A DNA stretch of 64,000 bases, taken from contig JAFTVF010000002.1 of the NCBI GenBank assembly GCA_017465865.1, forward strand, positions 26,622-90,621, read 5' to 3'. How positions within the stretch are numbered: position 1 is the first letter of the stretch; every line of letters begins with the position of its first letter. The DNA is from Clostridia bacterium. GTDB taxonomy: Bacteria; Bacillota; Clostridia; Christensenellales; Borkfalkiaceae. Under the pieces are notes generated by a model, which made no database searches, was not told the DNA's origin, and was given only the letters and a program-made list of their open reading frames with translations. Of the stretch, positions 15,498-63,925 are shown one piece after another. The position numbers were made by a program, and so were the translations under genes.

Positions 15498-16091
15498 TTA
15501 CATTTTATTCCGTTCTACGAACGCGCGGGCGAGCGTTACGTCGTCCGTGTATTCGATTTCCGAGCCGATGGGGATACCGTGCGCCAACCGCGTTACCGTG
15601 ATCTCGAAAGGCTTGATGAGTTTTGCGATATACATCGCCGTTGCGTCGCCCGAAACGTCGGGATTGGTCGCAACGATGACTTCCTTTACCTCGCCCTCTT
15701 GCAAACGGGCAAGCAGTTCGCGGATACGGATATCGTTCGGACCGACCCCCGCAAGCGGATCGATCACCCCGTGTAATACGTGATATACGCCCTTGAATTC
15801 GTGCAGTTTTTCGATCGCCGCCACGTCTTTCGGCTCTTTCACCACGCAGATCACCGACTTATCCCGCGTACGGCATACCGCGCAGGTGTCCTCTTCCGTG
15901 AAATTACCGCAAACCTTGCAGTATTTCACTTTCCGTTTCACACCCAAAATCGCGTCCGCAAACGCGCGCGCCTCCGATTCGGGCATATCGATAATCTTAT
16001 AGGCGTACCGTTGCGCCGTTTTTTTGCCCACGCCGGGGAGTTTGGAAAACTCGTTGACGAGCTTGCCGATGGGTTCGATAAAAATTTCCAT
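15498..16091 (-). CDS. recR: Recombination protein RecR
   Basis: RecR acts with RecO and RecF in loading RecA at single-strand gaps. The 197-aa protein shows the helix-hairpin-helix (PGVGKKTAQRYAY, residues 19-31), the four-Cys zinc finger (CKVCGNFTEEDTCAVC), and the Toprim domain (ICVVKEPKDVAAIEK and the ATNPDVSGDATA metal-site region). It follows ybaB with three bases between them, as in most Firmicutes where dnaX-ybaB-recR form an operon. Confidence 0.97.
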   Translation of the reverse strand: MEIFIEPIGKLVNEFSKLPGVGKKTAQRYAYKIIDMPESEARAFADAILGVKRKVKYCKVCGNFTEEDTCAVCRTRDKSVICVVKEPKDVAAIEKLHEFKGVYHVLHGVIDPLAGVGPNDIRIRELLARLQEGEVKEVIVATNPDVSGDATAMYIAKLIKPFEITVTRLAHGIPIGSEIEYTDDVTLARAFVERNKM

Positions 16092-38901: not shown

Positions 38902-38905
38902 ATCC

Positions 38906-39907
38906 TTACTCCTTTCCGTATTCTTCGCTATATCCGTCGCGGTTATAACCGCTCGTATCCTGCGGGATTTCCCGCGTCTTTTCCAGCTCCGACAGCCGTT
39001 TTTCAAACCGTACGGAATTGATAATCATATAAATCCCCAGCCCGACGATATACCCGCACACGAGTATCCCCGCCGCGGCGTTGATCACCGAGGGATCGAA
39101 CGAGGGCGGATACACGGCAAACACCGCCGTAAGCAAGGTCAGCGCGGACACGAGCGCCGAGGTCATATTGATATTTCTGGAAGCTCGCACGGCGAAATCG
39201 TCGTATTTTTTCGCTTTGACGATATTATACGCCGCCATGGCGATCCGATACACGGCGAACGCCGCAAACAGAACGATTGCGAATTTCGGCACGCGGAAGC
39301 CCTCGCCTTTGACGACCATTTCCACGACGGACACGGCGAGCGCGAGTGTCAGCACCAAAATCATGATCCCGCAATAGCGATACCCGCCCGCTTTTGCTTT
39401 TTGCAGGCGTATTCCGTCGTTTTTGTATTTGCGTTCGTCCTTGTGGTTTTGTATGAGCACGCCGCCGCGCGCCGCCACGAGCAGGATACTGTACACCGCG
39501 AGCGCGCCGTACCACACCGAACGGGTACGCAACGCCATTACGCACAAAAATACGGTGTAGCCGATATTAAAAAGCAGGGTACACGCGCCGAACACGATGG
39601 TACGGAACGCGTAATTTTTCCGCAAATTCCGCGTAAAGGTATATTTATCCGCAACGTTCATCAGGCGTTTTCGAAGCCGATACAGCGAGGCGATAGACAT
39701 ATACACGGTGTACAAAAAAATCAACCCGCAGACGATATACGCCACGACCGCGAGCACGCCGTGCCCGTAGCCCATTAAAATCGTCAGCACCGCCAGAGGA
39801 CAAACGACGAGCGTGGTCGCGTACATGATGAGCGCGACCCAATTCGGCGGATTATGCAGTTTTTTCAAAAATCTCTTAAAAAGAGGCTCTTTCTGCCGAT
39901 TCGCCAT
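38906..39907 (-). CDS. Polytopic membrane protein of unknown function
   Basis: A 333-aa protein with about eight transmembrane segments arranged in pairs (WVALIMYATTLVVCPLAVLTI, GVLAVVAYIVCGLIFLYTVY, IVFGACTLLFNIGYTVFLCV, and MILVLTLALAVSVVEMVV among them). Short basic loops and a cytoplasmic C-terminal helix follow. The ATG at 39907 has GAGGAG nine bases upstream; an ATG seven codons earlier touches the stop of the upstream gene. It lies between a PAS-PP2C phosphatase gene and the ManA-ROK gene, all on one strand. No family is recognised. Confidence 0.65.
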   Translation of the reverse strand: MANRQKEPLFKRFLKKLHNPPNWVALIMYATTLVVCPLAVLTILMGYGHGVLAVVAYIVCGLIFLYTVYMSIASLYRLRKRLMNVADKYTFTRNLRKNYAFRTIVFGACTLLFNIGYTVFLCVMALRTRSVWYGALAVYSILLVAARGGVLIQNHKDERKYKNDGIRLQKAKAGGYRYCGIMILVLTLALAVSVVEMVVKGEGFRVPKFAIVLFAAFAVYRIAMAAYNIVKAKKYDDFAVRASRNINMTSALVSALTLLTAVFAVYPPSFDPSVINAAAGILVCGYIVGLGIYMIINSVRFEKRLSELEKTREIPQDTSGYNRDGYSEEYGKE

Positions 39908-44716: not shown

Positions 44717-44750
44717 GACAAGCCGCGTCGCAGTTGCGACGCGGCTTGTC
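44717..44750 (-). terminator. Terminator of the cold-shock gene
   Basis: A 16-bp perfect stem (GACAAGCCGCGTCGCA and its complement) with a 2-nt gap; on the minus strand it is followed by ATTTTTA. Confidence 0.88.
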
Positions 44751-44765
44751 CACGTAAAAACTTTT

Positions 44766-44978
44766 TTACAGCGCCTGTACGTTGACAGCGCGAAGTTTTT
44801 CGGGGTTCTTCGGATCGGGCTCGACTTCGTAAGAAACCTTTTGCCCTTCTTTCAACCTTCTGTAACCCTCTGCTACAATCGCGGAGAAATGCACGAAGAC
44901 GTCATCGCCGCCTTCATCGCCTGCAATAAAGCCGTAGCCTTTTTCCGCGTTGAACCACTTCACAGTACCCTGACTCAT
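44766..44978 (-). CDS. Cold-shock domain protein
   Basis: A 70-aa CSD RNA chaperone of the CspA family that melts RNA secondary structure. RNP1 is KGYGFI and RNP2 is VFVHF, with the N-terminal [11 protein letters not shown]. The ATG at 44978 follows GGGGG and matches the family N-terminus. The transcript has a leader of about 75 nt, as is common for csp genes. Confidence 0.96.
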
Positions 44979-45058
44979 TTTCGGTACCCCCTTCATAAGA
45001 TTTTTTACCAATAGGAACTGCAACGAACCCCCAACGCATTTTCTATCTGTACTCTTTT

Positions 45059-45087
45059 ATTATATCATACTTTTTTTTCGATTGCAA
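45059..45087 (-). promoter_or_regulatory. Promoter of the cold-shock gene
   Basis: Minus strand: TTGCAA (45082-45087), 17-bp A-rich spacer, TATAAT (45059-45064). Confidence 0.7.
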
Positions 45088-50752: not shown

Positions 50753-53557
50753 TTAAAGTATCGTTTTCACAAACGCGTAGCTTTCGCGCAAAATCCCGCT
50801 CTTACCGTTTACCCACGTATTCGGTCTTTCGAAGGTCGCAGGTCCAACGCCTATATTCTCCTGTTCCTGCGTATGGAAAGGCCCTAAAAGATTGCGGTTG
50901 CCCACCGTCAGCGTAATTTCCAGCTCGTTTTCGCCCTTTTTCAGCGCGCCCGATAAATCGAGCCTCTTGCCGAACATCAGTCTGCCGACTTCCTTGCCGT
51001 TCACCTTTACGTCCAAAAGCTGGAAGCGTTTATCGATTACAAGCTCGCAAGCCGTATCGTCCACGACAAGCGTCTGTTTCAGCGTAATATCCCCCGCAAA
51101 GAACGGATACCCCTCCTCGATCAGCGACGAGATCTCCCGTTTTTGTTTGCCGAGACGGAAATTTTCGCCAAGCACGATATTTTCGTCTTTACCCTGCTTC
51201 AAATCCCCGTATACGCCGAACGAGCCTTTGAGGTATACCGCTTCGATATCCGTATCGTACGCAAGACAGTTTTTCAAGCTCTCCGTTACGTTCTCGCCGA
51301 ACAGCGCGTAATACACCTGCTCGCTCTGATAATAATCGATCGCGACCACGATTTCGTTCAAGCCCTTGCGGAGCGTTTTCGCGATATCGTACGCGTACAA
51401 CGCTTTTTCCACCGCCGACGAGCCGCAACGCTCTACCTTTTCGCCATTGACTTCCACGCACAGCGTGTTCGTGTCCTCCGCAAGCAGAATACATTTTTCA
51501 GGAATTTCGTCTACCGTAAATTCGTATTTGAGATACAGCTTACCCTGATATCTCTTTTTCAGCATTTCGTTGAAAACGCCCATATGATGCAACGGCTCGC
51601 TGTACGCCTTGCCGTCCGTCGAATAACGGATAAAATCGAGCGTGATATAGTTATCCGCTTCCCCGCAAACGGTGAATTTATTCCCCAAACGAACGGGTTT
51701 AAGCGTTTTTTGCGCCTTGGGCGTTTCCCCGCCGATATACAGGATACGGGATTGATTTTCGTCGAAATGCACGCTCGTACCCAGCGCCGTATATTCGTCT
51801 TTCATAATATCGTACGCCGTGAACGTCTTACCCTTTTCCAGCGTAAAATCCACCGTCATCTCTTTGCCGAGATTGACCGCGTAGATAAACTCTCTGCCCG
51901 TTTCGTCCTTGCGGATCACCGAACGGAAACCCTTACCGCAAACCGCCTTGTACGGCTGTGCGTTTTCGATTTCTTCCCAGCTCGTATTCGTGTTGAGATA
52001 TCCGTAGTCGTATTCCTCGCCCTCTAAATAGGTCGGCTTTTCGTCCGTCAGCAACACCTTACCGCCCGCTTTTACGAACTCGCGGAGCAGTTTTTCGGTG
52101 GTTTTGTCCATGGTGTAGATTTTCGGGAATACGATATACTCGTACGAGCATTTGCCCATCACGAGCTTGTTGCCCTCAACCCTGCCGTATTTCGCAAGCA
52201 GAGTTTCGTCTAAATAGTGGTACTGAATTTGTTTTTGCGACAGTTCCTCGGTAAGCCCCTGCCACGAGCTCTGCAATTCGGCTACGCCGTTGCCCGTATC
52301 GTTCTGATCCCGCTTATAATTGAAATACGCACTGCGAATGGGGTGTAGCATAGCCACGCGCACTTCCTCCTCGCTTTCGGCAAGGAGCTTGCCCAAAACG
52401 GAGAAATAGTCGTTAAAATCCTTAAAGCCCTTTTTCACCCAAGGATTGACTTCGGAGAAATGTGCGGGATAGTCGCGCTTTCTCTGACCGTGTTCGGTAA
52501 ACGGCAACAGATGCTGACACATCAAATTCACGCCGTCCACGTATTGATATTCGGCGATCCGTTTCAGCTCGTCGGGCGTAACGTCCCAACCGCAACAGCC
52601 GTAGGTTTCCGTGATCACCTGCTTTTTTCCAAGCTGCGCCGCAACGCTGGATACCTGCTTTGCCGCAACGCTTGCGCCAACGTTTCTGCCCAGTTTATCG
52701 ATCCCGGGGATATGCTCGAATTCATAGAACGGCATACACCCGCCGCAGCACCACATTTGACCTGCAAGTATCGTTTCTTCTACGTAATGCCCCGTGAGCT
52801 TGTAGCCGTTTTTATCGCACCAGGTATACACCTTTTCCGCGAAATTTTTCAGCATCAGCTGCTGCATTGCTTTCCAATACTTATAACGGAACGCGCGGTA
52901 GCCTTTCTTTTCCACGAACAACAGCCCGATCCCGTCGCGGATATCCTCGCCGTATTCCTCGCGGAAATATTTCTCCACCATCTTCGTGTACGCCGTACCC
53001 CAACGGTAATATTGCGGTTCGTCGGTGAAAAAGCCTTTCAGCTCGTAATCGTCCCGTTTTTTGTATTCCTCGTGCGTTTGCGCCAAGAACTGATCGACAA
53101 CCTCGGGATTGAGAATGTCCGCCGTACACGCCGAATAATGCCAATATACGTTGAGGCAGTTTTCGCCTGCCGTAACCCGTTTCAACGCCTCGCCGTTCAT
53201 ATCGTAGGACGCGAACGCCTTTTCGTCGTACGCGCCGAGCGTATAAGTCAAATATCTGTCGTGATTTTCGATATCGTCGAGCAGTTTTCCGCCGACAAAC
53301 CCGCTGGGCCAGCCGTTTTCGTCGTATGCGTACGCTTCCATACCCAGTTCCTGCGCTTTGCGGGAACAAGCGTCGATACAGTCAAACCATTTCTTACCAA
53401 GGTATTCCGTTTTCAAGCCCCCGCGAGCGTGCATGAAAAACCCGCCCACGCCGTTTTCGTTCATCCATTCGATTTGCTTTATCAATCCCTCTTCGTCCAA
53501 CTCGTCGTTCCACGACCAAAAAGGAATACACTGATACTTCTTTTCCGTTTCTCTCAT
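50753..53557 (-). CDS. Glycoside hydrolase, GH106-like (alpha-L-rhamnosidase-type)
   Basis: A 934-aa protein without signal peptide, so cytoplasmic. The N-terminal TIM-barrel part has the pattern of GH106-like enzymes (IPFWSWNDELDEEGLIKQIEW in parts, NGVGGFFMHARGGLKTEYLG, YAYDENGWPSGFVGGKL, FTDEPQYYRWG, ITETYGCCGWDVTPDELKRI), with candidate acidic catalytic residues in DENGW and TDEP. The C-terminus has beta-sandwich, carbohydrate-binding-like domains (CILLAEDTNTLCVEVNGEKV, YPFFAGDITLKQTLVVDD). Substrate is not proven. Being next to a propanediol microcompartment operon suggests release of rhamnose, a source of 1,2-propanediol. Confidence 0.7.
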   Translation of the reverse strand: MRETEKKYQCIPFWSWNDELDEEGLIKQIEWMNENGVGGFFMHARGGLKTEYLGKKWFDCIDACSRKAQELGMEAYAYDENGWPSGFVGGKLLDDIENHDRYLTYTLGAYDEKAFASYDMNGEALKRVTAGENCLNVYWHYSACTADILNPEVVDQFLAQTHEEYKKRDDYELKGFFTDEPQYYRWGTAYTKMVEKYFREEYGEDIRDGIGLLFVEKKGYRAFRYKYWKAMQQLMLKNFAEKVYTWCDKNGYKLTGHYVEETILAGQMWCCGGCMPFYEFEHIPGIDKLGRNVGASVAAKQVSSVAAQLGKKQVITETYGCCGWDVTPDELKRIAEYQYVDGVNLMCQHLLPFTEHGQRKRDYPAHFSEVNPWVKKGFKDFNDYFSVLGKLLAESEEEVRVAMLHPIRSAYFNYKRDQNDTGNGVAELQSSWQGLTEELSQKQIQYHYLDETLLAKYGRVEGNKLVMGKCSYEYIVFPKIYTMDKTTEKLLREFVKAGGKVLLTDEKPTYLEGEEYDYGYLNTNTSWEEIENAQPYKAVCGKGFRSVIRKDETGREFIYAVNLGKEMTVDFTLEKGKTFTAYDIMKDEYTALGTSVHFDENQSRILYIGGETPKAQKTLKPVRLGNKFTVCGEADNYITLDFIRYSTDGKAYSEPLHHMGVFNEMLKKRYQGKLYLKYEFTVDEIPEKCILLAEDTNTLCVEVNGEKVERCGSSAVEKALYAYDIAKTLRKGLNEIVVAIDYYQSEQVYYALFGENVTESLKNCLAYDTDIEAVYLKGSFGVYGDLKQGKDENIVLGENFRLGKQKREISSLIEEGYPFFAGDITLKQTLVVDDTACELVIDKRFQLLDVKVNGKEVGRLMFGKRLDLSGALKKGENELEITLTVGNRNLLGPFHTQEQENIGVGPATFERPNTWVNGKSGILRESYAFVKTIL

Positions 53558-53740: not shown

Positions 53741-54031
53741 TTACAATAAATAGTAAGGCATATCCGCGCCAAGCCCTACGCGTACGAACCCGTCCTTACC
53801 CGTCGCGGGCTTTGCAACCGTCTTTTTTACGGTCGTTTTCTTTGCCGCGGGCTTTTTCGCAGTCGATTTTTTTACCGCGCTTGCCGTTTCCACGGGCGCG
53901 ATCAATTTCTCCGTTACCTGCGGATCGGGATTTGCGATCACGTGGCTGTTTTCCATATCGGGCGCAGCCGTTTTTACGTTCGAATAGCCGTTGTTTTCCA
54001 CTCTTTTAATTGCGTTTTTGCCGATTGCCAT
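53741..54031 (-). CDS. Small basic protein paired with the BMC ParA ATPase
   Basis: A 96-aa protein of unknown family. The N-terminal third is a short conserved-looking module (MAIGKNAIKRVENNGYSN, then VKTAAPDMENSHVIAN). Residues about 53-82 are a histone-H1-like Lys/Ala/Thr-rich stretch (KKSTAKKPAAKKTTVKKT), and the C-terminus ends GADMPYYLL. The start (ATG at 54031, after GAGGAG) lies inside the end of parA, so the two are translationally coupled. ParA partners are often small basic proteins; in the McdAB carboxysome-positioning system McdB is such a partner. By this analogy it may link ParA to the compartment. Confidence 0.65.
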   Translation of the reverse strand: MAIGKNAIKRVENNGYSNVKTAAPDMENSHVIANPDPQVTEKLIAPVETASAVKKSTAKKPAAKKTTVKKTVAKPATGKDGFVRVGLGADMPYYLL

Positions 54032-54809
54032 AATACATAATCTCCTCTGCAAGTTTCGTATATTCCACCGCGCTGCGGCTGGTTTTTTTGTACGCTACGA
54101 CGGGCTTGCTGTTGTCCTGCGCCCATTCCACTGCGCTGTCCACGCGGATATAATTGTCGAACAGTCTTGCCCCGTCCGTCGCTTTCAGCGTTTCCAACGT
54201 CTGTTTGAAATATTTCTTCCGCTCGTCCGCTTTCGTTACCGCGATCCCCAGCACCTCGAGCTTGGGCGCGAGCGTTTTTACCTGATTGAAAAATTCGAAC
54301 ATATTCGCGATCCCGAACAATCCCCAAGGGCTTGCCTCGACGGGGATCACCACGTAATCGGACGCGCACATAATGTTCATTACCCAGCCCCCGAGCGTAG
54401 GCGGCGAATCGATCAGGATATAATCGTAATACCCCCGCGCGCGCACGGGTTCAAGGCATTTTTTCAGGATAAATTCTCTCTGCCATTTGGTGAACAGGTC
54501 AAACTCGATCGAGCTCATAAGCGACGAGGACGGCACGATATCCAAGCCCTCGTATTCCGTGGGTACGATACACGCCGAAAGGTCCTTTTCTTCCTTGATC
54601 GCCGTGTAGATATTCTTGCCCGTCTGCGCGTATTCGAGCGCGGTTTCCTCGTCGAAATAAGAAATGGTAAGATTCAGCTGCATATCGCCGTCGATCATCA
54701 GTACTTTTTTCCCCGCAAGCGCCATCGCGCAAGCGATATTCGAACAGGAAGTCGTTTTTCCGCTGCCGCCCTTGTTGTTAGCAAAGGCGATTACCGTCGT
54801 TTTACTCAT
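54006..54809 (-). CDS. ParA/MinD-family ATPase in the BMC operon
   Basis: A 267-aa deviant Walker ATPase. The loop KGGSGKTT (residues 13-20) has the signature Lys13 needed for dimerisation; the A' motif is VLMIDGDMQLNLT and the Walker B region is YILIDSPPTLGG. Such ATPases make gradients on the nucleoid to segregate plasmids or space cargo. There is no ParB or parS-like cluster nearby; the gene is the next-to-last of the BMC operon, behind eutP and overlapping a small basic protein gene. This favours a role in spacing microcompartments over DNA partition. The ATG at 54809 follows GAAAGGAG. Confidence 0.9.
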   Translation of the reverse strand: MSKTTVIAFANNKGGSGKTTSCSNIACAMALAGKKVLMIDGDMQLNLTISYFDEETALEYAQTGKNIYTAIKEEKDLSACIVPTEYEGLDIVPSSSLMSSIEFDLFTKWQREFILKKCLEPVRARGYYDYILIDSPPTLGGWVMNIMCASDYVVIPVEASPWGLFGIANMFEFFNQVKTLAPKLEVLGIAVTKADERKKYFKQTLETLKATDGARLFDNYIRVDSAVEWAQDNSKPVVAYKKTSRSAVEYTKLAEEIMYYGNRQKRN

Positions 54810-54829
54810 TTGTGCTCCTTTCGCCGTTC

Positions 54830-55348
54830 TTACAACAGCCAAGTATCCAGCCCGTCCGTTTTCTCCGTCTTTTTCGGGGTATACGTCGGCTTTTTAACGG
54901 CTTTTTTCTTCTTGATATCCCCGTCGTCGTTCAAAAACGCCGCCAGCTCCGCGATCCCCTCGCCCGTGATCGAGCTGACGGGGAACACCTTTTTACAGCC
55001 CGCAAGCCGCAGCCAACGGGTTACCCTCTCGACGTTCGCGTCGGGCTTGTCGATGCCCGTAACGATCCCGATCGTTTCGCGGTTTACCATACTCGTAAGA
55101 CAGGGCGAGAAAATGGAATACGGCTCGTTTGCCGAAAGCACCAACCCAACCACGTCCGCCTCGTACGCGTATAAGGCTAACGCACCGCTCGTTTCCCTGC
55201 GCTCGGTATATTCGCCAGGCGTGTCGATCACGGTGTCGAGATAATTCACGTACTGCGTTTTGTAATATTTGATTTCTTCACCGCGCAGAGCCTGCGTGAG
55301 CGTCGTTTTGCCCGCCGCCACCCTGCCGAATAGCATGATCTTTTTCAT
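54830..55348 (-). CDS. eutP: EutP/PduV-family GTPase with a basic C-terminal tail
   Basis: Small Ras-like GTPase found with ethanolamine, propanediol and glycyl-radical microcompartments; PduV has been linked to compartment movement. G1 is GRVAAGKTT (residues 8-16), G3 is DTPGEY (42-47) and G4 reads GIDK. The G domain ends near residue 143. The last 28 residues are an added tail, KKKKAVKKPTYTPKKTEKTD then GLDTWLL, which resembles the Lys-rich region and aromatic-Leu-Leu end of the neighbouring 96-aa protein. No Shine-Dalgarno site is evident. It lies between the PduU/EutS shell gene and parA. Confidence 0.92.
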   Translation of the reverse strand: MKKIMLFGRVAAGKTTLTQALRGEEIKYYKTQYVNYLDTVIDTPGEYTERRETSGALALYAYEADVVGLVLSANEPYSIFSPCLTSMVNRETIGIVTGIDKPDANVERVTRWLRLAGCKKVFPVSSITGEGIAELAAFLNDDGDIKKKKAVKKPTYTPKKTEKTDGLDTWLL

Positions 55349-55361
55349 TTTTTGTTTTTTA

Positions 55362-55721
55362 TCAGGTTTTCGTCAGCTCGCAGCAAATATAATCGAGCTT
55401 ATTGATAAAGTATTCGCGGATCGCCGTGAACGCCGCTTCCACCGAAGATACCGTGCCCGTAATGATCAGCGTACCCGTAAATCTGTCCACGAACCCGATG
55501 TCCGCGCCCGAGGACTTCATCGCGATATCCGCCGCAATCACCGCGCTTTCGTAAGGAATGACTGTCAATACGCCGATCGCGCTCTTGGTATAATCCGTTT
55601 GGGGGTCTAACCCGAGCTTGGTGTACAGCGTTTCCCCGGGGTTTGCAATGATATGGCAAAGGGTGATCTGCTTACCGGGAACGAATTCCTGTATAATTCT
55701 CATTTTGTCTTGAAGTTCCAT
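55362..55721 (-). CDS. BMC shell protein, EutS/PduU type (circularly permuted)
   Basis: A 119-aa hexameric shell protein of the permuted BMC fold. N-terminal RIIQEFVPGKQITLCHIIAN matches the beta-barrel-forming EutS/PduU start, and the core is AIGVLTVIPYESAVIAADIAMK, GADIGFVDRFTGTLIITGTVSSVEAAF in segments. It forms a facet tile whose pore is capped by a small barrel. The ATG at 55721 follows AGGAGAAAG. It is placed after the activase gene and before eutP. Confidence 0.93.
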   Translation of the reverse strand: MELQDKMRIIQEFVPGKQITLCHIIANPGETLYTKLGLDPQTDYTKSAIGVLTVIPYESAVIAADIAMKSSGADIGFVDRFTGTLIITGTVSSVEAAFTAIREYFINKLDYICCELTKT

Positions 55722-55750
55722 ACTCTTTCTCCTGTTGTTTCTGCGCTTAC

Positions 55751-56536
55751 TCAGCCGCCGATCTGGCATTTCAAGCCGCTTTCCTCGGCGACAGACAAAA
55801 GATATTCCATTTTTTCCTTGGACGGAGGCTCTATGCCCTGCAAGGCGTAATTCCGATCCAGCCCCGCGTATTTGTCCTGCCCCAAACGGTGATAGGGCAG
55901 CAAATGATGCTCCTGAACTCCCGATAAACTCGCCGCGAATTTGGAAATCGCTCTAATCTCCTCCGCCGTGTCGTTAAAGCCGGGAACGACGGGGGTGCGG
56001 ATAATCAGCTCCACGTCGCTGCTTGCCAGCTTTTTCGCGTTTTCCAAGATCCGCTGATTGTCCGCACAGGTGTATTCCTTGTGCTTTTGCCCGTCCATGT
56101 GCTTGATATCCATCAAATACAGATCGAGATACGGCAGTATCTTTTCAATGCTTTCAAACGGCGCGTTCGCCGTCGATTCCACCGCCGTATGCAAGCCGTT
56201 TTGCTTGCAGGCGCGGAGCAGATCGCGCGCGAACTCGGGCTGACCTAAAATTTCCCCGCCCGACAGGGTAATTCCCCCGCCGCTGCGGCGGTAATAGTTG
56301 CTATCCGCGAGTAGCTCAGGCAGGATCTCCGCGACGGTTACGTCCCGACCGACGGTCTTTTCCTTGCCGTTTTCGATCATCGTCTGGATCTCGTATTTTT
56401 GGGATTCGGGGTTACAGCACCACGCGCAACGCATAAAACAGCCCTTGAAAAAGACGATGGTACGAATCCCCGGTCCGTCGTGGATCGAGAATCGTTGAAT
56501 ATTGAATATTCTGCCTTTGGTGCTGTAAAAATCCAT
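55751..56536 (-). CDS. Glycyl-radical enzyme activase (radical SAM)
   Basis: Generates the glycyl radical on the adjacent diol dehydratase by SAM cleavage. The 261-aa protein has IQRFSIHDGPGIRTIVFFKGC leading into the radical-SAM motif C-x3-C-x2-C (CFMRCAWC, residues about 32-39), and GGGITLSGGEILGQPEFARDLL. It lacks the extra 8-Cys ferredoxin-like insert found in many glycyl-radical activases, so it is a short PflA-like form. It follows the radical enzyme gene by 13 bp. Confidence 0.93.
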   Translation of the reverse strand: MDFYSTKGRIFNIQRFSIHDGPGIRTIVFFKGCFMRCAWCCNPESQKYEIQTMIENGKEKTVGRDVTVAEILPELLADSNYYRRSGGGITLSGGEILGQPEFARDLLRACKQNGLHTAVESTANAPFESIEKILPYLDLYLMDIKHMDGQKHKEYTCADNQRILENAKKLASSDVELIIRTPVVPGFNDTAEEIRAISKFAASLSGVQEHHLLPYHRLGQDKYAGLDRNYALQGIEPPSKEKMEYLLSVAEESGLKCQIGG

Positions 56537-56549
56537 TGTTATTCCTTAC

Positions 56550-59081
56550 TTAAAATCCCTGCTCCGTACGGTTGATGATATCGTCCTGTAACGAGCGCGA
56601 CAGCGTTGTAAACAGCGCGCTGTAACCCGCCACGCGAACGACCAGAGTTTTGTATTTTTCGGGGTTCTTCTGCGCGTCGAGCAGCGTTTCGCGCGTAACC
56701 ACGTTAAATTGCATATGCATACCCTTTTGATCGAAATACGAACGGATCAGGGCTACGAATTTGGTCAATCCCGACATTCCCGCAAGCGCGGAAGGGTGGA
56801 ATTTTTGATTGAGCAGCGTACCGTTGCTGGCAACGCCCTGTTCGAGCTTCGCCACCGAGTTCGCCGTTGCCGTCGGGCCTTTCACGTCCCTGCCCGAAGC
56901 AGGTCCGATACCGTCCGCGATCGGCGTAAACGCAAGTCTGCCGTCGGGCGTTGCGCCCGTCTGCGCGCCAAGGGGTACGTTTGCGGAAACGGGATACAAG
57001 CCCGCTTGGAAAATCCCGCCGCGAGGGTTCTTGTATTTCTCCACTTCCTTGGTATAGGTATTCGCCACCGCGCGCGCGAACATATCCGCTTCGTAGATAT
57101 CGTTGCCGTATTTGGGACAGGTCTCGTCGATAAGCCGTTTGATCTCGCGGTATCTTTCGCGCTTAGCAGGCTCGATACCCGCGCCCGAAGTTACTTCCTC
57201 GTAGATCGCGCGGATCACCGCTTCGTTGACCTCGATACCCTCTTCCGCTAAGCTGCAAGCCACTTCGCTCGTTACCCGCTCCGCGGCTTTGCCCGTAAGC
57301 CCGTACCCGAAATTCGCGCGCAACGCGTCGCGCAGCTCGATCATCGTTACTTTCTTTTCCTCGAACACGAGCTGTTTGATCGCAAGCAGACCGTCGGTAT
57401 TGTTGGCAATACCAAAGCCCTGCGGGCCAGTGAAGTTATAGATCGCGCCGCCCTCTTGTAAGGACTTGCCCCTGCCGATACAATCGTCTACCATACACGA
57501 CTGGAAAGGCAACGGACAGCGGGTCGCGTGCGCCGTATCGATCGCGTTGTTCGCGTTGACGAGCAGTTTAATGAAATAGCTCTGTTGGGTCTTGTACGCC
57601 TCGAAAAATTCTTCAAAAGTCTGCATCTGCGCGACGTCGCCCGTTTGCGGACCGATCTGTACGCCCTTATCCATACCGCTCGAAAATACCAGCTCCATAG
57701 GACGGCACATATTAAAGAACGCCGCGTCGTGCCAACCGTCCGTTTTCGCGCCCTTTTGCGGTTCTACGCAACCGATGATACAATAATCTCGCGCGTCTTC
57801 GAGGGTAAGCCCTCTCGCCATAATGGACGGGATAATGATCTCGTCGTTATAATACGCGGGCAAGCCCGTGCCGAGCCGCGTCAACGCCGCCGCTTTTACG
57901 AGAAACGCCTCAGGCGAGCCGTTCCAAACGCGCACGGAAATAGAGGGCTGGGGCAGAGGTACGTGCATCGCCGCTTCCAGACACATATACGACAGATCGT
58001 TCGTCGCGTCCAGTCCGTGGATATCCTGACCGCCGACGATCAGGTTTTGGAACATACCGTAGCCCGCAAACCCGTCCGCAGACACCGCGTCGCGGACCTT
58101 GTTGATATCGTTGAGCTTTACCCAGATACAGTCGATAAGCTCCTGCGCCTGTTCAACCGTAATTTTGCCACTGTCGATATCCTTTTTATAGAATGGATAC
58201 ATATACTGATCGAAACGCCCGGGCGAAATAGAATGTCCGCTCGATTCGATCTGCAACAAGAGCTGTACGAACCAGAACGACTGGCACGCTTCGTGGAAAT
58301 CCGCCGCGGGGAATTCAGGCACGCGCGCGCAAGTTTTCGCGATCTTTTCCAGCTCCGCTTTACGCTCTGCGTTCTTTTCAACGAGCGCCTTTTCTTTCGC
58401 GAGCTTGGCGTATCTGCGCGCGTATTCGACCACCGCTTCGCAGGATTCGATCACCGCTTTCAAGAAATTGTTTCTCTGTACGTATTCGGGATCGGCTACG
58501 TCGAGCTTGTCAAGCGCCGACTGCGCTTCCGCCATGATACCGCGATAGCCTTTTTTGAGGACCTTTTCGTAGTTTACGTTGACGTGTCCGATACCGTTAT
58601 AGAAATAGTTCCCGGGCGTGAAAATGCCGTGGGTTACGAACGCTTCGTACGCCTCGGGCGACATATTCGCCTTGGCAAGATCGCTGTTCGTCTTGCCTTT
58701 CCAATAAGGATACGCGCCGCGAAGCTCTTCTTTCGTCTTTTCGCTGATATAGAACGGGTCAGCCGCACGGGTCGCCACCGTGTCGAATTCCGCTTCTAAC
58801 CATTCGTAGGAATATTCGGGGAAGACCTGACAGCCGCGCGGCGCAACCGTCGCGCTGCCCACGATAAGTTCCCCGTCGCGGATCACGATGGGGAGATTCC
58901 GCAAAATGTGCGCGAACGCCGCGCTTCTGCGGAGAATGATGGGAAGATCTTCCGTCTGCTTATAGCTCTCGGTTACGAGCAATCCGCGTGCGGACTCGAT
59001 CTCGGGCATCTTCTGATACAGATCGTCTATTAACTTGTCAATCCTCGCGCTCTTTTCCAGAACGAATTTGATATTTTCCAT
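56550..59081 (-). CDS. B12-independent glycyl radical diol dehydratase (probably 1,2-propanediol)
   Basis: An 843-aa glycyl radical enzyme of the compartment core. The thiyl Cys438 and Glu440 lie in IIGCVEPQ and the radical Gly819 in RVAGYSA. Further active-site residues fit diol dehydratases: His166 (NGIGHVNVNY), His283-Ser284 (SSGHSISPG) and Asp452 (WHDAAFF). These positions agree, as I recall, with the Roseburia propanediol dehydratase (H166, H283, C438, E440, D452), while choline lyase CutC has other residues at the His166 and Asp452 sites. Product would be propionaldehyde. The N-terminal 20 residues are helical (IKFVLEKSARIDKLIDDLYQ) and may help encapsulation. Glycerol dehydratase is the main alternative. 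Confidence 0.88.
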   Translation of the reverse strand: MENIKFVLEKSARIDKLIDDLYQKMPEIESARGLLVTESYKQTEDLPIILRRSAAFAHILRNLPIVIRDGELIVGSATVAPRGCQVFPEYSYEWLEAEFDTVATRAADPFYISEKTKEELRGAYPYWKGKTNSDLAKANMSPEAYEAFVTHGIFTPGNYFYNGIGHVNVNYEKVLKKGYRGIMAEAQSALDKLDVADPEYVQRNNFLKAVIESCEAVVEYARRYAKLAKEKALVEKNAERKAELEKIAKTCARVPEFPAADFHEACQSFWFVQLLLQIESSGHSISPGRFDQYMYPFYKKDIDSGKITVEQAQELIDCIWVKLNDINKVRDAVSADGFAGYGMFQNLIVGGQDIHGLDATNDLSYMCLEAAMHVPLPQPSISVRVWNGSPEAFLVKAAALTRLGTGLPAYYNDEIIIPSIMARGLTLEDARDYCIIGCVEPQKGAKTDGWHDAAFFNMCRPMELVFSSGMDKGVQIGPQTGDVAQMQTFEEFFEAYKTQQSYFIKLLVNANNAIDTAHATRCPLPFQSCMVDDCIGRGKSLQEGGAIYNFTGPQGFGIANNTDGLLAIKQLVFEEKKVTMIELRDALRANFGYGLTGKAAERVTSEVACSLAEEGIEVNEAVIRAIYEEVTSGAGIEPAKRERYREIKRLIDETCPKYGNDIYEADMFARAVANTYTKEVEKYKNPRGGIFQAGLYPVSANVPLGAQTGATPDGRLAFTPIADGIGPASGRDVKGPTATANSVAKLEQGVASNGTLLNQKFHPSALAGMSGLTKFVALIRSYFDQKGMHMQFNVVTRETLLDAQKNPEKYKTLVVRVAGYSALFTTLSRSLQDDIINRTEQGF

Positions 59082-59092
59082 AATTTATACCC

Positions 59093-59638
59093 TTATAACT
59101 GATTCCAAAGCTCTTCATGGGGCGCAGCGATGATCGAATAGCTGGACAGCTGCCCGCTCGTTTTTGCGTAATTCGAACCCGCTTCTACCGCCGCGGTAAC
59201 GTCGCCGACCTCGCCCGTGATCATAACGACGCCTTTCCCTCCCATACCGCGGGAAACGCGCAGATCGAAAATCTCCACCCTCGCGGTTTTTACCGCGATA
59301 TCCGCCGCTTTGATCGTCGTTGCCGCCGAGAACGTTTCAATCAGCCCCAGCGAGCCTTTCTTTTCCGTTTTCTGCGTACCGAACAATGCCGTGATGACCT
59401 GTTCGTCGATCCGACCCATTACCGAGCTGTCGATGACGTACCCGTCGAATTTGGACAGCACGTGGCTGACCGAAGCGGTTACGTTGGAAATAGAACCCGT
59501 TAAAATGATCTCGTATTTTCCAGGGCACGCAGGATGCGCCGAAACCATTTGCACGCCCGCGCTTTTGAGCGCCGCGTCCGTCGCTTCTACGCCTTTGGGG
59601 ATACTTTTCAGTTCGATAACGCCGATAGACTTAAACAT
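59093..59638 (-). CDS. BMC trimeric shell protein, PduT type
   Basis: A 181-aa tandem-BMC protein forming pseudohexameric trimers. Domain 1 is residues about 3-88 and domain 2 about 95-178 (GSLGLIETFSAATTIKAADIAV). Cys38 in AHPACPGKYE sits where PduT has Cys38, which binds a 4Fe-4S cluster at the pore, so it may pass electrons through the shell. The gene start overlaps the stop of the PduS-like gene (TAATG), an electron-transfer partner in the Pdu system. Confidence 0.92.
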   Translation of the reverse strand: MFKSIGVIELKSIPKGVEATDAALKSAGVQMVSAHPACPGKYEIILTGSISNVTASVSHVLSKFDGYVIDSSVMGRIDEQVITALFGTQKTEKKGSLGLIETFSAATTIKAADIAVKTARVEIFDLRVSRGMGGKGVVMITGEVGDVTAAVEAGSNYAKTSGQLSSYSIIAAPHEELWNQL

Positions 59639-60960
59639 TATTCATTCACCTTGTCAATTACGATTTTTTCTCCGTCGAATACCGTTACTTTGCCCGATAT
59701 CGGCGCGTATTGAGGAAGGGACAGCCCCTCCGCAGCTTCTGCGATCTTGTCGCCCTTTTGTACGAACTCTCCGTCCGAAACGCAAGGCACGCTCGGTGCG
59801 CCGATGTGTTGGCGGAGGAGTATTTCCACTCTCGAATAGCTCTGCTCGCCGACGAATTTCGGCACTTTGTCGAATTTCGCAACGCCCAGCACGCTCGCCC
59901 AACGCTCGGAGGGGATCATACGGTATTCCCGTTCCACCGCGGGCGATACTTCCGTTTTGCCCACGTACCGCATTTTGTTTTTCCCGAGCAACGCCTTGTA
60001 TTCGTTGATCACCGCTTTCGGGGAGATGCCCTGACAGCACGCAAGCGTTTCGCAAACGCCGCAGCCGCAGCAAAGGGTCGCCGAAAGCACCATTTCGGGC
60101 ATTACCGTCGCCGCCTGTTTCGCCGTCCGCACCATCTTATGCGGTTCGAGCGGATACCCGAGTAACGCGCGTGGACACATATCCGTACAACGCGTACACT
60201 GACAACACGCCGTTTCTGCTCTCGCCACCGATTTTTCGCCGTCGATGAACTTGGATATCACCGCTTCGCAATCGTTGGGCAAAACCAGAAGCCCTTTGGT
60301 CGTTTTCGTGATCACCGCGCGTTCGGGATCTATTACTTTCCCCATCGAAGGCCCGCCGTCGAGTACGGTGTAGCCCTCTTCGGGGATTATGATCGAATTT
60401 CTTTCGAAAAGCTCCGCCACGGACGTACCGATAGGAACTTTCACAACGATCGGCTCGGGGATATCCCCTGCGACCGTCAGCCATTTCATGGTAAGGGGTT
60501 CGGATTTTTTCGACATTGCCGCAACGTTGTACATGGTTTCTACGTTGTACACGATCACGCCTGCGGTGATGGGTAAATTCCCGGGCTTTACCACTCTGCC
60601 CGTCGCCTGATAGATCAGGCTGATTTCGTCGCCCATGGGATATACGTCGGGCAACGTTTTTAATATAATCCTTTCTGCAAGTTTGGTATCGTCCGCAAGC
60701 CGCAAACATTTCGCCGTGTGTTCTTTCACGCACAGCAAAGCGCGCGGGATCTTCGCGTAATCCAGCACGGCTTTGATGCCCGCAAGCACCATCGGCAGTT
60801 CCTTTTGCAAAAGGATATAATCGGTATACAAAAGCGGTTCGCATTCCGCGCCGTTAATGACGAGGACGTCCGCGCCGTCGGCAAGCTTGGCATACGAGGG
60901 AAATCCCGCGCCGCCTGCGCCGACGATACCAGCTTCTTTCATAATCTCTTTCAATTCCAT
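59638..60960 (-). CDS. PduS-like RnfC-family flavo/iron-sulfur protein
   Basis: A 440-aa protein of the RnfC/PduS group with an N-terminal Gly-rich FMN/NADH-type loop (GIVGAGGAGFPSYAKLADGA in parts, residues about 12-31), an SLBB domain (about 165-235, YTVLDGGPSMGKVID), and two 4Fe-4S motifs (CCQCTRCTDMCP and CCGCGVCETLACC). A C-terminal barrel-sandwich hybrid domain (about 380-440, APISGKVTVFDGEKIVI) closes it. In Pdu compartments PduS reduces cobalamin; here, with no B12 enzyme, it probably recycles NADH or feeds electrons through the PduT cluster. Confidence 0.92.
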   Translation of the reverse strand: MELKEIMKEAGIVGAGGAGFPSYAKLADGADVLVINGAECEPLLYTDYILLQKELPMVLAGIKAVLDYAKIPRALLCVKEHTAKCLRLADDTKLAERIILKTLPDVYPMGDEISLIYQATGRVVKPGNLPITAGVIVYNVETMYNVAAMSKKSEPLTMKWLTVAGDIPEPIVVKVPIGTSVAELFERNSIIIPEEGYTVLDGGPSMGKVIDPERAVITKTTKGLLVLPNDCEAVISKFIDGEKSVARAETACCQCTRCTDMCPRALLGYPLEPHKMVRTAKQAATVMPEMVLSATLCCGCGVCETLACCQGISPKAVINEYKALLGKNKMRYVGKTEVSPAVEREYRMIPSERWASVLGVAKFDKVPKFVGEQSYSRVEILLRQHIGAPSVPCVSDGEFVQKGDKIAEAAEGLSLPQYAPISGKVTVFDGEKIVIDKVNE

Positions 60961-60970
60961 AATAACCTTT

Positions 60971-61172
60971 TCAGTGAATTGAATTGCTTTGCAATTCGTG
61001 AATTTTCGCTAACGCTCAGTGAATTGGGCTTCGCCCGTGAATTGCGTTTCTATGAAACGCGTTATTGAATTATCCCACAACGCAACGCTATGCGTTGCAT
61101 TTCACGAAAAACGAAGTTTTTCATTTCACGCGCCAAAGGCGCATTTCACGCAACCGCAAGGGTGCATTTCAC
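60971..61172. repeat. Hairpin-array interspersed repeat, copy B
   Basis: Same architecture as copy A, in the gap between the EutN gene stop (61176) and the PduS-like gene start (60960). The fourth hairpin reads GCGTTTC-tat-GAAACGC (61044-61060) where copy A has GCGTTGC / GCAACGC, a paired change in both arms. Spacers are GTGAATT on the left and ATTTCAC on the right. Confidence 0.9.
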
Positions 61173-61175
61173 CTT

Positions 61176-61424
61176 TTAATCCACAATACCGACGATCACC
61201 GCGTCGCAAGGCGCGTTACAGTTGTGCAGAGCAAGACGCGCGGAGCTGCCCGTCGTGATGAGTACCGTTTCGCCGATACCCGCGCCAACGCTGTCCACCG
61301 CGATGAGATATTCGCCCGTCAGCTCGCCGTTTTTCATGATCTCCACTTCCATAAACTTCGACCCGATCAGGGATTCCTGTTTTCTCGTGGAAACGATGTT
61401 TCCTCTGATAATGCCTCTTAACAT
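61176..61424 (-). CDS. eutN: BMC pentameric vertex protein, EutN/CcmL family
   Basis: Forms the pentamers that close compartment vertices. The 82-aa protein matches the family: an N-terminal MLRGIIRGNIVSTRK, then LIGSKFMEVEI, LIAVDSVGAGIGETVLITTGSSAR in parts, and the final DAVIVGIVD strand. It is 4 bp downstream of pduL and is followed by repeat copy B. Confidence 0.95.
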   Translation of the reverse strand: MLRGIIRGNIVSTRKQESLIGSKFMEVEIMKNGELTGEYLIAVDSVGAGIGETVLITTGSSARLALHNCNAPCDAVIVGIVD

Positions 61425-61428: not shown

Positions 61429-62094
61429 TTACTCCTTTACGACCTTAACTTTTGCGCCGTTACCGATACCCACTGCGTTCGCGTCGTCCGTATCGATATG
61501 CATTTCCAAACGGAAATCGGGATGCACGCGTACCTGTACGTCATACCAACGCGTACGGCGTTTCCCAACGACGTCCACCGTTACGGTATCGCCGTCCTTT
61601 ACGCCGAATGCCGCGCCGTCCGCAGGCGACATATGGATATGTCTGTTTGCCACGATACAGCCCTCTTTGAGCTGTACGACGCCCTTAGGTCCGATAATCG
61701 TTACGGGCGCAGAGCCCGCAATATTCCCCGACTCGCGTACGGGGGGCTTTACTTTGAGAACGTAAGAATCGGTTGCGGAGATCTCCACTTGCGATTTGCT
61801 TCTCAAAGGTCCGAGAACGCGCACGTTCTCGATAGGGCGCATTGCAGGACCGATCAGGGTCAGCGTTTCTTTGCAAGCGTACTGCCCCGGCTGAGAAAGA
61901 TCTTTCATCGGGGTAAGCTCATAGCCTGCGCCGAACAGCGTTTCCATATCCGCTTTCGTCAAATGGATATGTCTGTTCGATACGCCTACGGGCACTTCGC
62001 CGTTCGAGCCTGCCGAAACGGGCGCGTCGCTCCCGTCCATATCCGCCAACACTTTTTTAACCAATTCCGCGATCTGCGCGCTTGAAAATTCCAT
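61429..62094 (-). CDS. pduL: Phosphate propanoyltransferase PduL
   Basis: Converts propionyl-CoA and phosphate to propionyl-phosphate and CoA inside the compartment, recycling CoA. The 221-aa enzyme has the two zinc-site motifs VGVSNRHIHLT and ANRHIHMSPADGAAFG, with the conserved GPKGVVQLKEGCIVA region. The first 18 residues (FSSAQIAELVKKVLADM) form an amphipathic helix and linker typical of an encapsulation peptide. The ATG at 62094 follows GGAAGGAAAG. Next to eutN, as in many BMC loci. Confidence 0.95.
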   Translation of the reverse strand: MEFSSAQIAELVKKVLADMDGSDAPVSAGSNGEVPVGVSNRHIHLTKADMETLFGAGYELTPMKDLSQPGQYACKETLTLIGPAMRPIENVRVLGPLRSKSQVEISATDSYVLKVKPPVRESGNIAGSAPVTIIGPKGVVQLKEGCIVANRHIHMSPADGAAFGVKDGDTVTVDVVGKRRTRWYDVQVRVHPDFRLEMHIDTDDANAVGIGNGAKVKVVKE

Positions 62095-62127
62095 ATTCTT
62101 TCCTTCCAAAACTTTTTGATTTTACGC

Positions 62128-62246: not shown

Positions 62247-62519
62247 TTATTTAATAGCGGGAAGAAGTTTTTCAACGTCTGCGTGAGGACGAGGGATTAC
62301 GTGCGTAGCGATTACTTCGCCAAGCGCGGTAGCCGCAGCCGTACCTGCTTCCACAGCAGCCTTTACTGCGCCAACGTCGCCGCGAACCATAACGCTTACC
62401 AAACCGCTACCGATCTTTTCGCTGCCGATCAGGATAACGTTTGCAGCCTTTACCATTGCGTCCGCCGCTTCGATCGCCGCTACAAGACCTCTCGTTTCAA
62501 CCATGCCTAATGCTTCCAT
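62247..62519 (-). CDS. BMC hexameric shell protein (PduA/EutM type), copy 1
   Basis: A 90-aa canonical BMC-H tile forming the shell facets: [41 protein letters not shown] with the pore loop KIGSG, then [19 protein letters not shown] and the C-terminal [14 protein letters not shown]. It differs from the tile encoded at 63089-63364 at a single residue (Ile29 versus Val). Preceded by GGAGGATT. Confidence 0.96.
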
Positions 62520-62591
62520 TGTTAAATCCTCCTAAGATTTTTTTGTTTTTGTTTTTTTATTCTTCAAGGCTCGCGCCTTAAATTCGTTGTA

Positions 62592-62864
62592 CTAACCCGT
62601 CGTTAAGAATTTCATAACGTCGGGATGGGGACGTGCGATCACCTCGCACACCTTTACGTTACCGACTTCCGCCGCCGCTTTTGCGCCCGCTTCGAGCGCC
62701 GCTTTGACTGCGGAAACTTCACCCTCGACGACGATCGTTACCAATCTGCCGCCAAGCCGCTTTTCTACGTGTATCAGCTTTACGTCAGCTGCTTTTACCA
62801 TAGCGTCAAGCCCGGTGATTGCGGCAACCATAGCCTGTACTTCGAGTAACGCTATTGCTTTCAT
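62592..62864 (-). CDS. BMC hexameric shell protein, divergent pore
   Basis: A 90-aa BMC-H protein: MKAIALLEVQAMVAAITGLDA, KAADVKLIHVEKRLGGRLVTI and the C-terminal VIARPHPDVMKFLT. The pore loop reads KRLGGR in place of KIGSG, so a more basic pore is expected, suited to anionic substrates such as acyl-phosphates. It sits between repeat copy C and BMC-H copy 1. Confidence 0.95.
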   Translation of the reverse strand: MKAIALLEVQAMVAAITGLDAMVKAADVKLIHVEKRLGGRLVTIVVEGEVSAVKAALEAGAKAAAEVGNVKVCEVIARPHPDVMKFLTTG

Positions 62865-62885
62865 TGAAAATTTCTCCTTTTAATC

Positions 62886-63089
62886 AAGTGAATTGAATTG
62901 CTGTCGCAATTCGTGAATTTTCGCTTGCGCTCAGTGAATTGGGCTTCGCCCGTGAATTGCGTTGCCTCACAACGCGTTATTGAATAATTCCACAACGCAA
63001 CGCTATGCGTTGCATTTCACGAAAAACGAAGTTTTTCATTTCACGCGCCATAAAGCGCATTTCACGCAACCGCAAGGGTGCATTTCACT
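62886..63089. repeat. Hairpin-array interspersed repeat, copy C
   Basis: Same architecture as copies A and B, between two shell protein genes; its right edge touches the stop codon at 63089. The first hairpin loop is tgtc in place of tta or ttt; the second is CGCTTGCGCTCAG where A and B have CGCTAACGCTCAG. Confidence 0.9.
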
Positions 63090-63364
63090 TATTTAATAGC
63101 GGGAAGAAGTTTTTCAACGTCTGCGTGAGGACGAGGGATTACGTGCGTAGCGATTACTTCGCCAAGCGCCGTAGCCGCAGCCGTACCTGCTTCCACAGCA
63201 GCCTTAACCGCGCCAACGTCGCCGCGAACCATAACGCTTACCAAACCGCTACCGATCTTTTCGCTGCCGATAAGAACGACGTTTGCCGCCTTTACCATTG
63301 CATCCGCTGCTTCGATCGCTGCTACGAGACCTCTCGTTTCTACCATGCCCAATGCTTCCATCAT
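63089..63364 (-). CDS. BMC hexameric shell protein (PduA/EutM type), copy 2
   Basis: Nearly identical to the tile at 62247-62519, with Val instead of Ile at position 29 (numbered from the second Met). DNA differences are mostly silent, pointing to a duplication kept similar by selection or gene conversion. Two ATG codons in a row begin the ORF; the first is better spaced from GGAG. The identical pore motif KIGSG implies the same transport property. Confidence 0.96.
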
Positions 63365-63402
63365 AATTGTAATTCTCCTTTTGAATTATATTTTTTTATT
63401 TT

Positions 63403-63720
63403 TTATCTTAATTTGTCTTTGCCGAGGGCGCTCAAACGGGCAAACCATTCGATATCCTCGCTCTGTCTTGCAATTACCTTGTGGGTAATGTACAAATCTC
63501 TCTTTTCGGCTTCGGCTTTGCCTGCCGCGACCGCCGCTTCGACTGCCGCCACACTGCCCTCCACCTTGATCGCCATGACCAGAGGCACACGTGCGGAATC
63601 TCCTGCCGCGGGCTTGTTTTTGTCGATCGCCACGACCTGTACGTCCGCGGCTTTCGCCATAGCGTCCGCGACCACGATCGAGGTTGCGAAACCGAATACT
63701 TCTATCATGCCAAGTGCCAT
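63403..63720 (-). CDS. BMC hexameric shell protein with extended loop and tail
   Basis: A 105-aa BMC-H protein: MALGMIEVFGFATSIVVADA, KAADVQVVAIDKNKPAAGDS with a lengthened pore-side loop (about residues 33-46, NKPAAGDSARVP), then IKVEGSVAAVEAAVAAGKAEA and a tail IARQSEDIEWFARLSALGKDKLR in parts that is about 15 residues longer than in the other tiles. The ATG at 63720 matches the family start. It is the first complete BMC gene of the operon in this window. Confidence 0.93.
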   Translation of the reverse strand: MALGMIEVFGFATSIVVADAMAKAADVQVVAIDKNKPAAGDSARVPLVMAIKVEGSVAAVEAAVAAGKAEAEKRDLYITHKVIARQSEDIEWFARLSALGKDKLR

Positions 63721-63736
63721 AATGTTCTCCTTTCTG

Positions 63737-63925
63737 CTAATTGAATTGCGTTGCAATTCGTGAATTTTCGCTTGCGCTCAATGAATTGGGTTTCACCCGT
63801 GAATTGCGTTTCTACGAACGCGTTATTGAATTATTCCACAACGCAACGCCTTGCGTTGCAATTCACGCCCGTAAGGGCAATTCGCGAAATTTATTTCAAT
63901 TCATGCAAGCAACGCTTGCAATTCA
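63737..63925. repeat. Hairpin-array interspersed repeat, copy D
   Basis: Most diverged copy. The third hairpin is GGGT-ttc-ACCC (63788-63798) where the others have GGGC-ttc-GCCC, a compensatory pair change. The hairpin GAAAAAC-gaa-GTTTTTC is replaced by GCCC-gtaa-GGGC, and the right-half spacers are AATTCAC. It lies between the shell gene start and the stop of the partial gene at 63927. Confidence 0.88.

Follow-up and report, generated by a model that had tools for sequence, protein, structure and literature searches.

A ParA-family ATPase and a small, probably ParB-derived protein as a candidate positioning system for a catabolic microcompartment

How are catabolic bacterial microcompartments (BMCs) placed in the cell? 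The question is described as open (PMC8262871, PMC13052382), and putative McdAB systems have already been published for some BMC operons, including operons near PDU, EUT and GRM loci (PMC8262871, PMC4207490, PMC13052382, PMC11321042). It is raised anew by a locus of a Clostridia bacterium (assembly GCA_017465865.1, contig JAFTVF010000002.1, positions 26,622 to 90,621), a stretch of 64,000 nucleotides that we refer to as the window. Here, the genes of a ParA-family ATPase and of a 96-residue protein stand at the end of a BMC operon. An initial annotation had proposed that these two proteins and the GTPase EutP, encoded just upstream, form a positioning trio for a glycyl-radical compartment. Co-occurrence and operon position support the proposal for ParA and the small protein and not for EutP. 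Our data suggest that ParA and the 96-residue protein probably constitute an ATP-driven, McdAB-like positioning or partition system for a GRM5-like, probably rhamnose-fermenting microcompartment, recruited from a ParA/ParB pair separately from the carboxysomal McdA. The features on which this proposal is built are the following.

53741..54031, minus strand: 96-residue partner protein, putative McdB-like adaptor, ParB-type without ParB_N (homology, locus context)
53939..54031, minus strand: conserved partner head, residues 1-31 (MAIGKNAIKRVENNGYSNVKTAAPDMENSHV; hhalign P 1.1e-9, or 2.1e-12 on trimmed blocks)
53795..53893, minus strand: variable Lys/Ala/Pro-rich partner linker, residues 47-79 (length differs among homologues)
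53744..53770, minus strand: partner C-terminal tail GADMPYYLL, common to ParB_N-type partners (hhalign P 2.9e-10, last 12 residues)
54006..54809, minus strand: ParA-family ATPase, 267 residues, of a BMC-linked ParA clade (Pfam AAA_31, 182.6 bits)
54750..54779, minus strand: deviant Walker A motif NNKGGSGKTT with signature Lys13 (sequence)
54830..55348, minus strand: EutP/PduV-type GTPase, 172 residues (Pfam PduV-EutP, 172.4 bits; TIGR02528, 148.5 bits, cut-off 138.35)
54833..54922, minus strand: Lys-rich EutP tail with LDTWLL end, lineage-specific (in 21 of 44 complete EutP)

The ParA clade and its association with microcompartment genes

The ATPase begins with MSKTTVIAFANNKGGSGKTT and, since it is numbered from this ATG, the lysine of its deviant Walker A motif is the signature Lys13, as first annotated. 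NNKGGSGK recurs in all 40 clade loci collected, the same pattern having served to collect them. With a profile built from 12 close-relative ParAs (A2), nine genomes in a sample of 248 from the order reach at least 350 bits, and all other ParA in that sample stay below 170 bits. A class sample of 391 genomes contributed two more carriers, and in their family (f83) the clade ParA is present in 9/9 genomes; among 299 genomes sampled across the phylum there was no carrier besides the window's own at E<=1e-50. The clade is split from Soj-type proteins at 100/100 in a tree that comprises 14 Soj-type rows (two rows being one gene) beside 40 clade ParAs and omits the GTDB loci and genome G196, where ParA is cut by a contig end.

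Carriage of this ParA (E<=1e-55 in the family sample) follows carriage of BMC genes (PF00936) closely. Among 101 genomes of the window's family, the clade ParA occurs in 24, BMC in 25 and both in 24, with BMC in one of the 77 genomes that lack the ParA (Fisher 2e-22, not corrected for kinship). The window's own genus, represented by 10 of these genomes, comprises seven with both and three with neither. In the order sample, BMC genes are found in 28 genomes, namely in 9/9 carriers versus 19/239 others (Fisher 8e-10). Overall, 40 of 41 carriers have a BMC. The clade parA lies at the BMC operon itself in 29 of them, i.e. the 24 family genomes, G277, G189 and three genomes of f32/g86, and on a contig other than that of the BMC operon in the remaining 12, which belong to f13 and f83. 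BMC genes are nevertheless present in the genome of 11 of these 12 (3/3 in f13 and 8/9 in f83), and in G196, whose contigs are short, the two may in fact be linked. The association extends over five genera of the family, three further families of the order and one family outside it, and the small type of partner described below is found at BMC loci in 16/16 cases. The co-occurrence that the initial annotation proposed to look for is thus present, and neither a ParA residing mostly away from BMC loci (12/41 only) nor a parS-type array was seen; matches to the canonical parS 16-mer at up to 3 mismatches number zero in the window, against a chance expectation of 0.28, in agreement with the absence first reported.

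A plasmid or phage origin of ParA was considered and rejected. Among the 5000 plasmid records listed, the best match is 39% identical and none reaches 60%; the best phage match is 36% identical, likewise with none at 60% or above (171 phage records). Repeats around parA are limited to short, weak pairs.

A separate observation concerns the shell of genomes with an unlinked clade parA. In the six of 11 such genomes that were read (L137, L138, L139, L140, L141 and L190), a BMC-H gene carries a Lys-rich N-terminal extension of 50-70 residues in 6/6. Of 73 loci surveyed for this feature, 17 contain no recognised BMC-H and the other 50 no extension of at least 25 residues. At its end are KEE-x-x-M-like codons, within which an internal ribosome-binding site could lie, so that two forms may be produced.

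A small partner of probable ParB-type ancestry

The gene of the 96-residue protein, which contains 14 Lys and 14 Ala, overlaps parA by 26 nucleotides, parA stop included, and its annotation as a Lys/Ala-rich gene that follows eutP and parA at the end of the BMC operon is confirmed. The protein matches no Pfam family at E<=0.01, no helix-turn-helix (HTH) family and no ParB_N domain. A histone-like identity was rejected, the NCBIfam matches being far below cut-off and covering the Lys/Ala stretch. The protein is found in 12/101 family genomes, where EutS, EutP, ParA and the small gene stand together in 12/12, and a scan of GTDB contigs with its sequence returned 45 loci, titled Clostridia or Clostridiales metagenome-assembled genomes and in many cases labelled as deer, sheep, goat, yak or 'Lapin' samples. 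Its homologues combine a conserved head and a conserved tail, in which the GTDB loci also admit Trp at the aromatic position, with a linker of highly variable length. The small gene is thus real, with parA directly upstream in 45/45 GTDB loci, a conserved head and a variable linker.

Partners with the head or tail motif are encoded beside ParA in 35 of the 40 collected clade loci, and in one of the five partnerless loci (G094) the contig breaks off. Of the 35 partners, 16 are of the small type (60-131 residues) and 19, in sister loci, are longer (138-375 residues) and hold the same place as the 96-residue gene. Both types share a head of which the first ~15 residues are common, with the motif M-x-[IV]-G-x-x-[SA]-[ILV]-x-R; Gly4 and Arg10 are present in 35/35 and Lys5 in 32/35. 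The tail reads P-x-[YF]-L-L in 34/35 partners and P-V-Y-Y-L in one. Profile comparison of small versus longer partners with hhalign gave P 1.1e-9 for the heads (2.1e-12 on trimmed blocks) and P 2.9e-10 for the last 12 residues, for which five column permutations gave 0.02-0.43. The two motifs are short, and the position behind an orthologous ParA counts as much as these scores.

The longer partners link the system to ParB. Of the 11/19 that were scanned, ParB_N was matched above the Pfam cut-off in six and below it in four, with one (L095) unmatched, and none of these 11 matched an HTH or other DNA-binding family. A profile of 18/19 longer partners (A3, omitting the partner of 375 residues) matches structures of Noc and ParB at 4e-13, with profile positions 15-107 aligned; matches to coiled-coil viral envelope pieces in the same structure search (E 0.0016 and above) were taken as chance. 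The initial annotation had seen no ParB nearby. Judged by the shared ends and the ParB_N-bearing relatives, the 96-residue protein itself is most likely a ParB-type protein stripped of ParB_N, derived from the ParB superfamily rather than a member of it. ParB_N was probably lost rather than gained, because ParA/ParB is the wider pair. On the tree, the small partner type needs three changes (2-3 in bootstraps), of which well-supported branches force only one. The tree is therefore compatible with two losses of ParB_N, in the window lineage and in f32/g86, without forcing them; G189, a neighbour of f32/g86, retains a longer partner. In the 375-residue partner, that of G707 (L191, 8604-9731), head and ParB_N stand far apart, joined by a very long Lys/Ala/Pro-rich linker.

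The initial annotation had pointed to a common aromatic-Leu-Leu end in EutP (DTWLL) and the small protein (PYYLL), and this likeness is real. An end in [YFWH]LL is found in 68 of the 1,705 open reading frames of at least 60 residues that the fetched loci contain: 46 ParA partners, 20 EutP and two unrelated proteins. In this count, a partner with a wrong start and a truncated EutP were classified by eye, and the loci are in large part mutually homologous. The two tails are far from chance.

The operon and its compartment

On the minus strand, the gene order from the right window edge is four BMC-H, PduL, EutN, PduS/RnfC-like, PduT-like, glycyl radical enzyme, activase, EutS, EutP, ParA, the 96-residue protein and a GH106-like rhamnosidase. 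The BMC-H run is also where the contig of 90,621 bases ends, just past the four genes. Besides the features given above, the operon and its downstream neighbour comprise the following.

62247..63756, minus strand: four BMC-H shell genes (62247-62519, 62592-62864, 63089-63364 and 63403-63756)
61429..62109, minus strand: PduL phosphate propanoyltransferase (family models)
61176..61424, minus strand: EutN/CcmL pentameric vertex protein (Pfam)
59638..60960, minus strand: PduS/RnfC-like electron-transfer protein (Pfam; RnfC-type models below cut-off)
59093..59638, minus strand: PduT-like shell protein with two BMC domains (PduT model, 104.8 bits, below cut-off 250)
56550..59081, minus strand: glycyl radical enzyme, PFL2-3/glycerol dehydratase subfamily (family models)
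55751..56536, minus strand: glycyl radical enzyme activase, radical SAM (family models)
55362..55724, minus strand: EutS/PduU-type BMC shell protein (BMC domain above cut-off; EutS model, 111.1 bits, slightly below cut-off 123)
50753..53557, minus strand: GH106-like alpha-L-rhamnosidase, downstream of the partner gene (Glyco_hydro_106, 48.9 bits, cut-off 29; match to residues 7-84 only)

The glycyl radical enzyme is a probable B12-independent 1,2-propanediol dehydratase, a substrate assigned from the operon. Another contig of the same genome (C11) encodes a sugar kinase, a rhamnose isomerase, an aldolase, an aldehyde dehydrogenase, an alcohol dehydrogenase and, near the contig end, a BMC-H; these names derive from Pfam matches of the G277 copies and of the C11 kinase. 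G049, of the same genus, has the kinase through the glycyl radical enzyme on a single contig (L194) and, further along, EutS through the rhamnosidase (L005); in G088 a single contig covers the kinase through PduS, and GTDB contig SVIW01000002.1 (L016) provides an unbroken stretch from BMC-H to the rhamnosidase. The set typical of GRM5, i.e. a class II aldolase, glycyl radical enzyme and activase, PduS, PduL and aldehyde dehydrogenase, is present (G049 and G088; Pfam of the G277 copies). The GRM5 type has been described for fucose and rhamnose (PMC4207490, PMC8217296), with DeoR, PduS, aldolase, hydrolase and DUF336 as ancillary genes in PMC4207490, in whose available text ParA is not named. 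The gene content from kinase to rhamnosidase in C11, G049 and L016 thus indicates a compartment of the GRM5 kind. Its substrate is probably rhamnose, which the GH106-like rhamnosidase downstream favours.

Several further observations were made along the contig. The BMC-H genes 62247-62519 and 63089-63364 are almost identical within one operon, and the contig breaks of G000 and G277, which the copies probably caused during assembly, fall in the BMC-H run. Gut-1 RNA (RF01706) matches occur at window positions 61094-61174, 63009-63090 and 3894-3976 and in L100 at about 15900-16000, hence both inside the BMC operon and elsewhere, and two of them score above the gathering score. They are part of a dispersed repeat of ~100-140 bp whose copies are 87-94% alike and which recurs elsewhere in this genome, on another contig. 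Away from the operon, a single open reading frame (37048-38913, minus strand) fuses a mannose-6-phosphate isomerase part with a ROK-family part, and a cspA thermoregulator match below threshold (44717-45076, minus strand; 43 bits, gathering 78) lies over a cold-shock-protein-like open reading frame.

A positioning model, its alternatives and known systems

In the model that we propose, ParA-ATP dimers would bind the nucleoid non-specifically, and the basic head of the partner (Arg10, Lys5) would bind ParA and trigger ATPase activity and release. A flexible linker would connect the head to the P-x-[YFW]-L-L tail, which would dock on the compartment. Compartments would in this manner ride ParA gradients and become spaced and shared out at division. 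In part of the lineage, the EutP tail would copy the docking motif and dock at the same site. We infer each of these binding and movement steps. The assignment of ParA binding to the head and of compartment binding to the tail is proposed by analogy, because the window's partner has the plan of McdB: a basic head, a low-complexity linker and an aromatic tail. H. neapolitanus McdB requires only its N-terminal 20 residues for McdA binding, a lysine there being critical (PMC12204374), and the C-terminal aromatic residue of McdB, a tryptophan, is needed for carboxysome docking (PMC11321042). McdB-like proteins near PDU/GRM loci carry Tyr or Phe within the last five residues (PMC11321042). Docking of the tail on the compartment rather than on ParA would fit EutP, which in part of the lineage has the tail without such a head.

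A number of observations weigh against this model. The counts share descent, and the Fisher values overstate the evidence. Within the family, G100 has a BMC without the clade ParA, and in f83 one genome (G703, 76% complete) has ParA and partner with no BMC detected. Four genomes (G112, G139, G404 and G704) have no motif-bearing partner beside their clade ParA, nor at their BMC loci where these were read, and Lys5 is absent from 3/35 partners. Identification of the head with the canonical ParB motif LG[KR]GL was tried and was not significant (P 0.04 for the longer and 0.067 for the small partners); 5/40 column permutations of the longer partners' head matched the motif equally well. The window's ParA scores 107.7 bits with ParA 8ray and 105.6 bits with Soj in phmmer, and 47.4 bits with McdA 6noo. 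By sequence, the ATPase is not of the McdA family, though the system should work like McdAB. Finally, placement of the Pdu BMCs of Salmonella is unaffected by introduced McdAB or by ParA/MinD (PMC12866334), so that not every metabolosome is placed by such a system.

ParA and its partner could instead serve BMC biogenesis or regulation, for example through assembly of the shell, control of number or a signalling role together with a neighbouring DeoR regulator. We consider this unlikely, although co-occurrence does not separate positioning from assembly. A DeoR-family gene does lie between PduT and ParA in the 12 loci of g2/g10/g18, the three of f32/g86 and the one of f29, an arrangement commoner than the eutP-parA trio. 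It is not seen in the window lineage, where parA follows eutP and the DeoR-like stretch of G049 and G088, weakly similar (34-35%), lies upstream, past the sugar kinase; in f13 and f83, parA is found elsewhere, the DeoR gene remaining with PduT. The type of ParA, the basic head and the aromatic C-terminus moreover fit published positioning adaptors.

Less likely again is that EutP forms a functional third member, coupled to ParA through its GTPase and its tail. EutP scores above its family cut-off (TIGR02528), and its gene precedes parA in 12 family loci and in 44/45 GTDB loci (the exception, L043, is cut by a contig end), 41 of those 44 with a gap below 200 nucleotides. Its tail ends in the aromatic-Leu-Leu of the partner in part of the loci, and PduV has been suggested to affect placement of Pdu BMCs (PMC8262871). 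The tail, however, is present in only 21/44 complete close EutP (window and L015-L059), plus G277, the remainder having a Lys-rich end without aromatic-Leu-Leu or no such end. In g2 and g18, the operon carries eutP at its far end, and no eutP was detected in the f29 and f32/g86 loci, which do encode ParA and partner. As a general, conserved third member EutP was therefore rejected; it may dock at the same site as the partner without being an obligatory part. At three loci, a lipoprotein-like gene (MKK... start, lipobox-like TAC or SGC) is found between eutP and parA (L018, 8380-9113; L019, 826-1482; L032, 699-1347).

A conventional partition cassette, of chromosome or plasmid, standing beside the BMC operon by chance would account for a ParA nearest to Soj-type proteins among solved structures and for ParB_N in the longer partners, but is very improbable given the lack of HTH families in the partners scanned and of parS (at up to 3 mismatches) in the window, the low identities among the plasmid and phage matches listed, the three same-genus genomes that lack ParA and BMC alike, and the separate Soj-type ParA that some carriers hold in addition.

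For the positioning system of ParA and partner, an evolutionary course can be outlined to which we give an even chance. A catabolic microcompartment would have acquired a ParA/ParB pair for its own use, apart from the recruitment of McdAB; the ParB of this pair would have lost the DNA-binding part and then, perhaps twice, ParB_N, leaving head and tail. The Lys-rich BMC-H extension may supplement the adaptor, both being present in G575, or take its place, since G112, G139, G404 and G704 have no partner beside ParA. We know of no account of the origin of McdB-type adaptors, and found no report of a ParB ancestry of BMC partners in the open-licence literature. The present system has a good chance of explaining how such adaptors arose: its ParA tracks a non-carboxysome BMC in several families, and its partner has a readable ParB-type ancestry. 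This suggests that organelle positioning has been built from DNA partition machinery more than once, and the short head and tail motifs make direct tests simple.

The window's eutP is a member of the EutP/PduV family, distinguished in part of the lineage by the additional Lys-rich, aromatic-Leu-Leu tail. With ParABS and Noc, the system shares the ParA fold and, in the longer partners, ParB_N (Noc/ParB match at 4e-13); it differs in that no HTH was found and no parS, in a partner of down to 60 residues and in the genomic link to BMCs. PadC of Myxococcus, a ParB-like protein that recruits ParA to bactofilins, provides a parallel, compared here by description, for reuse of a ParB fold as a ParA adaptor for a non-DNA structure, with a different cargo and with binding of CTP by PadC (PMC12704722). 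The main text of that 2025 survey of ParB folds mentions no microcompartment, organelle or carboxysome.

The McdB-like proteins near PDU/GRM loci, compared by description only, are likewise predicted to be adaptors of BMCs other than carboxysomes. A conserved Tyr or Phe lies within their last five residues, and the window's protein fits that picture; a relationship to ParB and an unlinked co-occurrence are not mentioned in the available text of PMC11321042. With the alpha and beta McdAB systems, the similarity is at the level of motifs and consists of a ParA-family ATPase encoded at or close to a BMC operon together with a small partner of low complexity, which has a basic N-terminus and a C-terminal aromatic residue. 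In contrast to McdAB, the ParA described here is far nearer to Soj than to McdA, its partner's tail is P-x-[YFW]-L-L rather than the R(V/I)WPD of alpha-McdB or the lone Trp of beta-McdB, relatives of the partner carry ParB_N, and the cargo would be a catabolic, GRM5-like compartment.

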